A DNA stretch of 62,148 nucleotides from Verrucomicrobiota bacterium (GTDB taxonomy: Bacteria; Verrucomicrobiota; Verrucomicrobiia; Opitutales; UBA2995): contig JAQBYJ010000023.1 in the NCBI GenBank assembly GCA_027622555.1, forward strand, positions 1 to 62,148. The letters are read 5' to 3'. Positions 19,606-57,514 of this stretch are shown piece after piece. The position numbers were made by a program, and so were the translations under genes. Positions within the stretch are counted from its first letter, which is position 1. Each line of letters opens with the position of its first letter. The notes under the pieces are model-generated. The model was given only the letters and a program-made list of their open reading frames with translations, made no database searches and was not told the DNA's origin.

Positions 19606-19643
19606 TAATCGCAGTTGTACCGAGACCTTCGGTCGACAAATTG

Positions 19644-19720
19644 GTAGGGCGGGAGCGTCCCTGCTCCGCCGCCGAATACTCAAGAAATACTCGGCACTGC
19701 GAGGACGCAGTGGCCCAACC
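19644..19720. repeat. REPIN-like, GTAGGGC subfamily
   Basis: Left half GTAGGGCGGGAGCGTCCCTG followed by CTCCGCC forms an imperfect stem (GGCGGGAGC with GCTCCGCC). The right half is an inverted, decayed version with a CACTGCG-AGGA-CGCAGTG stem and ends GGCCCAACC. It is similar in opening to the repeats at 10311 and 41106. Confidence 0.55.
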
Positions 19721-40975: not shown

Positions 40976-41050
40976 TTTTAAGAGGCGCATTGTGAAAACC
41001 TGTTCTACTTCACACATATTAATATGGTACTATTTTAACTAAGAGGAATA

Positions 41051-42271
41051 TTGGACACACCAAATGATAGAAGCGTCGCCAAATTCCCCCATCATCACAA
41101 CGATGGTAGGGCAGCAGCGTCCTCGCTGCGCCGTGTATTTCCAGTGATTCCAGCGGCAGTTCCGAGGAGCTGGGTGACGACAAGACCGGCAGTTCTACTG
41201 ACCGGACCACGGAGATGCTTTTGCCCTACCTATTCAAGTTTCAGGAAGCACGAGGTAGGCCTTGAAAATCCTGAATATCTCCCAGCACAAAATAGTTTCT
41301 ATCTCTTAGGAATCTTCCTTATTTTCCTTTCACTCTTTATCCGCGTCCATGGCGCAGAAATCCCGACTGTTACCCGTCTGGGAAATGGACCTATTATCAC
41401 TCAGAACATGGATAATCGCATGGGTGGAAACGTCCAGGGTCCGTCTCTGATAAAAGTCCCAGAATGGGTTAAAAATCCACTCGGGAAATACTATCTATAC
41501 TTTGCCGATCATCGAGGAACCTATATTCGTTTAGCCTATGCAGACGATTTATCGGGCCCATGGTCCATACATGAATCCGGCTCACTACAGTTAAAGAATT
41601 CCTTCTTCCCAACCTCAGTGCCCAAGGAATTGGAAAACTCCCCTTTTGCCTATGCACACATTGCATCGCCCGATGTCCATGTGCGGGAAGAATTACAGGA
41701 ATTCGTTATGTACTTACATGGCTGGGATCTTCTTGGAGGTGCGGGCACTCAGTTCACAAGGTTGGCAACATCAAAGGATGGAATCCATTTTGAAGGTCGC
41801 CCGGAAGTATTGGGAAGACCTTACTTTCGCGTAACCAAACATCGTAACTACTATTACGCGATGGCGATGCCTGGGTATTTGTATCGATCCAAAGACGGAA
41901 AAAGTGGATTCGAGCCGGGGCCACGATTTTTCAACGACAACATGCGCCACAATGCTCTCTTGGTCAGGAACAATACCTTGTACGTCTTTTGGACTCAGGT
42001 CGGTGATGCGCCAGAACGCATATTCCTATCGACGATTGAAATGAAAGGAGATTGGTCGACTTGGCAAACATCGGATCCAACAGAGCTATTACGCCCGGAA
42101 CGAAAGTGGGAAGGAGCAGATTGGGAAATCAAACCATCGGAACGAGGCTACGTAGGTGAACGCGTCAATCAGTTGCGCGACCCAGCCATTTTCGAAGAAA
42201 ACGGCGAAATTTTCCTTCTATACTCAGTCGCTGGAGAAAGTGGCATCGCGATTGCAAAACTTGATTTCTGA
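41051..42271 (+). CDS. GH43-like beta-propeller protein with repeat-disturbed 5' end
   Basis: The mature part (from about 41358) is a five-bladed propeller of the GH43/GH32/GH117 type: KYYLYFADHRGTYIRLAYAD, SPDVHVREELQEFVMYLHGW, LYVFWTQVGD and RDPAIFEENGEIFLLYSVAG. It probably binds or cleaves a sugar chain; catalytic acids cannot be fixed with confidence. A hydrophobic export segment (FYLLGIFLIFLSLFIRVHGA) precedes it. The start is a problem: between the repeat at 41106-41230 and this segment there is no ATG, GTG or TTG in frame, so translation must begin inside the repeat (GTG codons near 41140 and 41174) or at TTG 41051. The stated start is therefore only the frame limit. Confidence 0.68.
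   Translation: MDTPNDRSVAKFPHHHNDGRAAASSLRRVFPVIPAAVPRSWVTTRPAVLLTGPRRCFCPTYSSFRKHEVGLENPEYLPAQNSFYLLGIFLIFLSLFIRVHGAEIPTVTRLGNGPIITQNMDNRMGGNVQGPSLIKVPEWVKNPLGKYYLYFADHRGTYIRLAYADDLSGPWSIHESGSLQLKNSFFPTSVPKELENSPFAYAHIASPDVHVREELQEFVMYLHGWDLLGGAGTQFTRLATSKDGIHFEGRPEVLGRPYFRVTKHRNYYYAMAMPGYLYRSKDGKSGFEPGPRFFNDNMRHNALLVRNNTLYVFWTQVGDAPERIFLSTIEMKGDWSTWQTSDPTELLRPERKWEGADWEIKPSERGYVGERVNQLRDPAIFEENGEIFLLYSVAGESGIAIAKLDF
41106..41230. repeat. REPIN-like unit, GTAGGGC subfamily, in a gene 5' end
   Basis: Starts GTAGGGCAGCAGCGTCCTCG, whose stem is GCAGCG/CGCTGC, and ends GCCCTACC on the right. The interior has a further hairpin around ACCGGCAGTTCTACTGACCG. At 125 bp it is longer than the other units. 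The translated frame of the GH43-like gene runs through it. Confidence 0.6.

Positions 42272-55858: not shown

Positions 55859-55862
<4 letters not shown>
54879..55862 (+). CDS. LacI-family transcriptional regulator
   Basis: A 327-residue regulator. The N-terminal helix-turn-helix TIYDLAALVQVSPGTVSRVL (9-28) and hinge helix region ARVLEAAKELGLKPQSAAR are classic LacI family; the rest is the periplasmic-binding-protein-like effector domain (YFLDGIIAVLYDK, FAGGPAQPAMERKRGFVDEI, ISFIGGESPG). Effectors are usually sugars. Placed divergently from the TonB receptor and beside four sulfatases, it probably senses a breakdown product of the imported glycan. Its stop shares the bases TTAA with the stop of convergent sulfatase 8. 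Confidence 0.94.

Positions 55863-57514
<1,652 letters not shown>

Follow-up and report, generated by a model that had tools for sequence, protein, structure and literature searches.

A palindromic repeat of the REP/REPIN type stands ahead of a gene for a secreted, GH43-like enzyme that has no ordinary in-frame start codon between the repeat and its export signal. The explanation tentatively favoured here, in preference to capture of the start by the repeat, is a frameshift (a mutation or a consensus error) with the repeat as a bystander. The window, that is, the whole stretch of DNA analysed (62,148 nucleotides), is contig 23 of a 6.0-Mb draft genome of 238 contigs. In the proposed mechanism, an ordinary GTAG-type REP/REPIN would lie within the 5′ untranslated region of a gene that encodes a secreted propeller enzyme and was probably acquired horizontally, and the native start would be at or near 41262, presumably the TTG found there. 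The first 15 codons would be one base out of register with the rest of the gene, owing either to a recent frameshift that silenced it or to a consensus error in the draft genome, and the repeat would have no part in the register defect. The positions, frames, conservation and relatives' start positions given below are direct observations (Table 1). The window also holds a sulfatase gene that is the best case of a REPIN in frame inside an export signal, and that is more interesting than the case of the GH43-like gene.

Table 1. Features of the window, with their positions and the evidence that places them.
Feature	Positions	Strand	Basis
In-frame TTG before the repeat; GAGG at 41043-41046	41051..41053	+	sequence, start scan
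REP/REPIN-type unit REP-A, 126 nt, GGTAGGGC...GCCCTACC, long-spacer variant	41105..41230	+	pattern counts, fold
In-frame GTG within the repeat, without Shine-Dalgarno match	41144..41146	+	start scan
In-frame GTG within the repeat, GAGGAG directly upstream, 5-nt Shine-Dalgarno match	41174..41176	+	start scan
GAGG before TTG 41262, within a 5-nt Shine-Dalgarno match	41252..41255	+	sequence, start scan
Out-of-frame TTG, candidate native start; reads LKILNISQHKIVSIS, stop 41307	41262..41264	+	frames, relatives' start positions
Hydrophobic core of export signal, gene-body frame	41300..41341	+	translation
Mature enzyme domain, GH43-like propeller fold, stop codon included; cleavage point by eye	41357..42271	+	family/structure comparison
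Sulfatase (PF00884), signal peptide containing REPIN-B	55859..57514	-	family search
REPIN-B, 70 nt, between the ATG and the hydrophobic core of the sulfatase, in frame	57412..57481	-	copy search, orthologue alignment

The repeat unit ahead of the GH43-like gene

The unit begins at 41105 with a left REP, GGTAGGGC, and finishes at 41230 with the right, inverted copy, GCCCTACC, which is degenerate as judged by eye. The left REP core has 109 copies in the genome at no more than one mismatch, against 3 for a reversed-pattern control, and 72 exact copies in that genome against none for the control. The unit as a whole is predicted to form a long end-to-end hairpin (DNA fold z -4.75; 0 of 200 shuffles as good). 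Its GTAG tag, short stem-loop and many genome copies make it a GTAG-type REP, and its two inverted REPs in a single hairpin make it a REPIN. Many other REP-A copies in the same genome are inverted pairs with similar spacing, and two other long copies (L002 and L018) align with the unit and have in common with it the interior blocks GAGGAG...GACGACA and ACCGGACCACG. At 126 nt, the unit corresponds to 42 codons and is divisible by three. Exact REP-A copies were found in 8 of the 18 genomes searched (own genome included), all of one family: they occur in 6/6 genomes of the genus and 2/2 further family members, and in 0/10 genomes from outside the family. A second, more regular REP-A pair lies in an intergenic region of the window (19643-19720).

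The family of REP-associated transposases (Y1_Tnp) has 21 matches in the genome (G000; L115-L134 among them), and in none of the 20 of these loci examined with their flanks is the gene adjoined by exact REP-A. A REPIN/RAYT system, in which the cognate RAYT is flanked by the same REP, was thus not found for REP-A among these 20. One locus (L133) has GGTAGGGC-headed repeats on both sides, but their stem is different, and another RAYT-type gene (L129) is flanked by REP-B, the REPIN type of the sulfatase.

Start codons and reading frames

The frame of the GH43-like gene is open from 41039 to the stop at 42271. The only in-frame ATG, GTG or TTG codons before the export core are TTG 41051 and the GTGs at 41144 and 41174; from 41177 to the core (at about 41300) there is none, and inspection by eye of the gene frame from 41231 to 41299 found no CTG, ATT or ATC start. 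The next in-frame ATG is inside the mature domain, 95 codons past the left REP core. The original prediction that a repeat precedes a GH43-like gene without an ordinary start is thereby confirmed; the candidate starts that it named, a GTG within the repeat or TTG 41051 before it, are also real, except that the repeat holds two GTGs and not one. In an alignment with the similar long copies L002 and L018, GTG 41174 is missing at the equivalent place. According to dinucleotide shuffles, an opening of 88 codons (41039-41302) has p = 0.02 in one given frame; taken separately, the repeat and 41231-41302 would stay open with chances of 0.23 and 0.20.

TTG 41262 is 31 nt downstream of the repeat and 37.7 codons before a conserved RL..PII anchor, in a register one base off that of the gene body. 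The short frame that it opens runs as far as the hydrophobic core; the translation of the gene frame there is YLLGIFLIFLSLFIRVHGAEIP. A codon model built on 95 N-termini of the same genome, which ranked the true frame above the shifted one in 89% of 65 training cases, gives the 41262 frame +3.9 bits and the gene frame -4.4 over the same stretch. A whole-gene codon model shows the opposite, smaller preference over 41261-41308 (gene frame +2.7, 41262 frame -0.5). Just past the repeat (41240-41275), a predicted hairpin, TTCAGGA...TCCTGAA, encloses the GAGG and TTG 41262; it may be due to chance.

Export signals were surveyed in 1.26 Mb of the genome, which gave 198 ORFs with an early hydrophobic core and without several later ones. 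Within 35 codons of the core, 151 of them have an ATG (at 1-35 codons), 29 have only GTG or TTG and 18 have no start; four ORFs of the 198, the GH43-like gene included, have no start although they are open for more than 45 codons. The n-region read in the 41262 frame has two Lys and no acidic residue, a composition found in 50 of the 151 ATG-started signals. The in-frame stretch before the core, RKHEVGLENPEYLPAQN, holds three Glu and is net negative, as are 8 of the 151 in-frame signals; 127 of them are net positive. In the GH43-like gene, a putative Sec signal shows a core and a VHG-A site, and its n-region is typical in the 41262 frame and atypical in the gene frame. Out-of-frame decoy starts with at least two basic and no acidic residues occur in 6/151 genes, and such decoys with a Shine-Dalgarno match of at least 5 occur in 0/151. 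TTG makes up 6 of 276 chosen starts, under a scoring that penalises TTG and GTG, and Shine-Dalgarno matches are weakly enriched at the starts of this genome. TTG starts look rare, and with so weak an enrichment the Shine-Dalgarno match at 41262 alone proves little.

The enzyme and its relatives

The enzyme is GH43-like by fold only, as judged from a structure model. Searches of Pfam and NCBIfam at the default threshold gave no family, the glycoside hydrolase family 43 profile (PF04616) scored 15.9 bits, below its curated cut-off of 32.2, and a profile search of PDB sequences gave marginal matches only. The structure model (pLDDT 92.7) matches GH43 enzymes and mannobiose phosphorylases, which we take to be GH130, with query TM-scores of up to 0.60 among the matches listed. 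In a tree, the enzyme falls within a set of 14 rows (support 100/99), of which the other 13 are all labelled Pseudomonadota, mostly Gammaproteobacteria, and a distant paralogue is carried by its own genome and three genus mates. On these two grounds, the gene was probably acquired horizontally. The window copy keeps all 64 conserved positions (those kept in at least 93% of 87 rows, after 9 sequences were dropped for length or ambiguity); the losses in other rows range from 0 to 7.

The search for a close orthologue that could give the ancestral start found none in five genus mates: the paralogue is present at 50-52% identity in G001, G004 and G005, nothing matches in G003, and a contig end in G002 holds a fragment, 61% identical over 66 residues, that has an ATG of its own and a signal like that of a lipoprotein and is a candidate orthologue. 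No closer relative was found in 384 genomes of the class, own genome included. As for synteny, a different gene lies upstream of the acylase orthologue in G005 (L202), and the DUF3604 orthologue in G002 (L212) is uninformative, its locus ending about 290 nt past the gene.

Start positions were compared in 80 untruncated relatives, which remained of 95 after removal of 13 (10 on the minus strand and 3 without the anchor) and of 2 that were truncated. A start is found 18-50 codons before the anchor in 67 of the 80 (ATG in 57 of these), and in all 14 of the closest relatives (at least 60% identity, untruncated 5′ end) there is an ATG 22-45 codons before it. The frame before the anchor is open for fewer than 60 codons in 57/80 and for at least 80 in 13/80, the value for the window copy being 112. 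Orthologues with the same long N-terminus and no repeat, which would speak against the original prediction, were looked for, and there were none among the 14 closest relatives, whose frames are open for 32-85 codons. Among all 80, six distant relatives of at most 54% identity (L057, L064, L108, L111, L112 and L114) are open for at least 112 codons, but in all six of them a start is present 18-50 codons before the anchor as well.

A REPIN inside the sulfatase signal peptide

The original prediction set the GH43-like gene beside the sulfatase as a second case of a repeat near a secretion signal. Its remark on the sulfatase is right and has grown stronger: the repeat there is located within the export signal, and five species have retained it. 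Its ATG is at 57514, and REPIN-B stands between this ATG and the hydrophobic core. This REPIN type has 21 perfect copies in the own genome and 40 in six genus genomes (control 0). Sulfatase orthologues in G001, G005, G002 and G003 carry a recognisable copy at the same place and have exactly 55 codons from the ATG to the mature RPNILL; only a C-terminal piece is present in G004, and in family members G006 and G007 the same distance is 51 codons, inspection by eye revealing no REPIN in the sulfatase. Across the five species, the REPIN segment has a nucleotide identity of 77%, compared with 48% upstream of it and 55% downstream, and its differences fall on codon positions 1/2/3 as 37/71/59, unlike those of a conserved peptide.

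The hairpin is largely maintained in the five species, with 97.5% of cells pairing and 3 pairs changed on both sides. Its covariation score is 0.256 against 0.025-0.087 for slid controls, and 0/500 shuffles reach it, while 58/500 match the count of pairs changed and 40/500 that of further pair types; only five sequences entered the test, and the structure was drawn from those same sequences, which favours it over the slid versions. The arms switch between GGGGC/GCCCC and GCGGG/CCCGC. Since both arm types occur among the genome's REPINs, exchange with other REPIN copies would be as likely an explanation as selection on the hairpin. The sulfatase has at least 152 matches in the own genome, where 79 of 432 candidates were scored, and three of those listed are interrupted by an internal stop, possibly a sign that the family includes pseudogenes.

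Similar placements occur elsewhere in the genus. Nine of the 40 perfect REPIN-B copies lie within ORFs that continue for at least 100 codons, in a survey where 5/40 (L245, L270, L280, L285 and L286) had fewer than 500 nt on one side, so that ORFs may be missed. The order ATG, REPIN-B and core, without a start between REPIN and core, is found in two cases, the window sulfatase and L272 (G001). In-frame copies of a similar kind are present in L284, L251 and L244, but there a start also follows the REPIN. According to the listed starts, 0/9 copies lie deep inside a gene body, among ORFs that continue for at least 100 codons. A REP-A pair is likewise in frame between ATG and hydrophobic core in L148/L287. 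By motif, L272, L251 and L148 are presumably sulfatases.

Explanations for the missing start

The probabilities attached here to the explanations are judgements from rough odds and were not computed. A native start at 41262, now out of register, is favoured by the relatives' start positions, the rarity of comparable decoys and the chemistry of the n-region, and a one-base register defect beyond the repeat, at the position where relatives start, would explain the missing start without the repeat. The original prediction, which offered only a captured start or a gene cut off from its start, overlooked this TTG; its first option remains a serious contender. The 88 open codons upstream (p about 0.02) and the slight preference of the whole-gene codon model for the gene frame speak against the frameshift, and a shift falling in a stretch of 45 nt is a priori unlikely. 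Given that no conserved position of the body is lost, any inactivation must be very recent. Capture of the start, only somewhat less probable than the frameshift, would mean that translation begins at TTG 41051, or at GTG 41174 with the GAGGAG of the repeat serving as ribosome site, and reads through the 42-codon unit, which would give an unusually long, partly repeat-encoded n-region. In favour of reading through the repeat are the open frame, the precedents within the genus and a gene body that is intact, to which can be added the unit length divisible by three, the 5-nt Shine-Dalgarno match at GTG 41174 and the 29/198 early-core ORFs with only GTG or TTG. The precedents are the window sulfatase (in frame in 5 species) and L272, with caveats L251, L284 and L244, and the REP-A pair of the further sulfatase-like gene. 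These precedents, however, use an ATG that is 7-13 codons ahead of REPIN-B, or in L148 about 40 codons ahead of the REP-A pair, while capture requires an n-region about 40 or 80 residues long that carries three Glu ahead of the core and has a net negative charge, as seen in only 8/151 signals. GTG 41174 is missing from both similar copies, the N-terminus that capture yields is common to none of the 14 closest relatives, and the well-formed out-of-frame start is left unexplained.

It has also been considered that insertion of the repeat removed or displaced the native ATG and left a decaying gene without an efficient start. The lack of any in-frame start after the repeat is consistent with this, as are several REPs within tens of bases of starts in the same genome; the explanation is nevertheless improbable, for the gene body is without decay, the stretch after the repeat gives an atypical acidic n-region in the gene frame, and inserting 42 whole codons would not by itself have put an upstream start out of frame. 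The gene frame might also be reached from TTG 41262 by programmed -1 frameshifting, since the two frames meet at the hydrophobic core, but no canonical slippery heptamer was seen by eye in 41262-41306 and an in-frame start is present in 14/14 closest relatives, which makes this route very improbable. A joint reading of both genes holds that the genus has more than once tolerated in-frame REP/REPIN units within Sec signals, between the n-region and the hydrophobic core, the sulfatase insert being kept through speciation as a nucleic-acid hairpin and not as a peptide, and the GH43-like repeat supplying ribosome site, start codon and n-region; as a whole it seems rather unlikely.

Relation to known elements and significance

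GTAG-tagged REPs have been described as 24 families of short palindromes headed by GTAG, often arranged as inverted pairs; they are abundant in O. terrae (Verrucomicrobia), which also has the largest number of intragenic ones (PMC3733652). Some lie at the N-termini of ORFs, and the authors warn that translation may start downstream, which would make many of these extragenic (PMC3733652). The unit studied here resembles them in its GTAG head, its inverted pair and its place at the N-terminus of an ORF (PMC3733652). In the text of that survey, no numbered family could be matched to the window consensus, GGTAGGGCnnnnGCGTCC (PMC3733652). The 126-nt long-spacer unit is also larger than the common REP-A pairs of its own genome. 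The REPINs of Pseudomonas fluorescens SBW25 are two inverted REPs predicted to form a single hairpin and are mostly extragenic (PMC3116915). The likeness lies in the inverted REPs and the one hairpin (PMC3116915), and the difference in that none of the 20 Y1_Tnp loci here has a RAYT directly flanked by REP-A. Rickettsia palindromic elements are read in frame inside proteins, some of them N-terminal and expressed (cited in PMC3733652); in comparison, the repeat of the GH43-like gene is only a candidate for translation, and the sulfatase insert lies inside a Sec-type signal peptide. The kind of element is therefore already known. No report of REPINs in signal peptides or at starts, nor of their conserved placement in signal peptides, was found in the open-access literature searched, although the intragenic REPs catalogued for PMC3733652 may include such cases.

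If the start of the GH43-like gene was captured by the repeat, a mobile palindrome would be the supplier of a translation start and of part of an export leader. If it was not, the gene would be an example of how a neighbouring REP can mislead gene callers into proposing an N-terminus that is too long. The sulfatase makes it testable whether the n-regions of signal peptides are a safe landing site for miniature mobile elements, and the reason proposed for their persistence in coding sequence is that any in-frame, stop-free peptide may be tolerated in the n-region.
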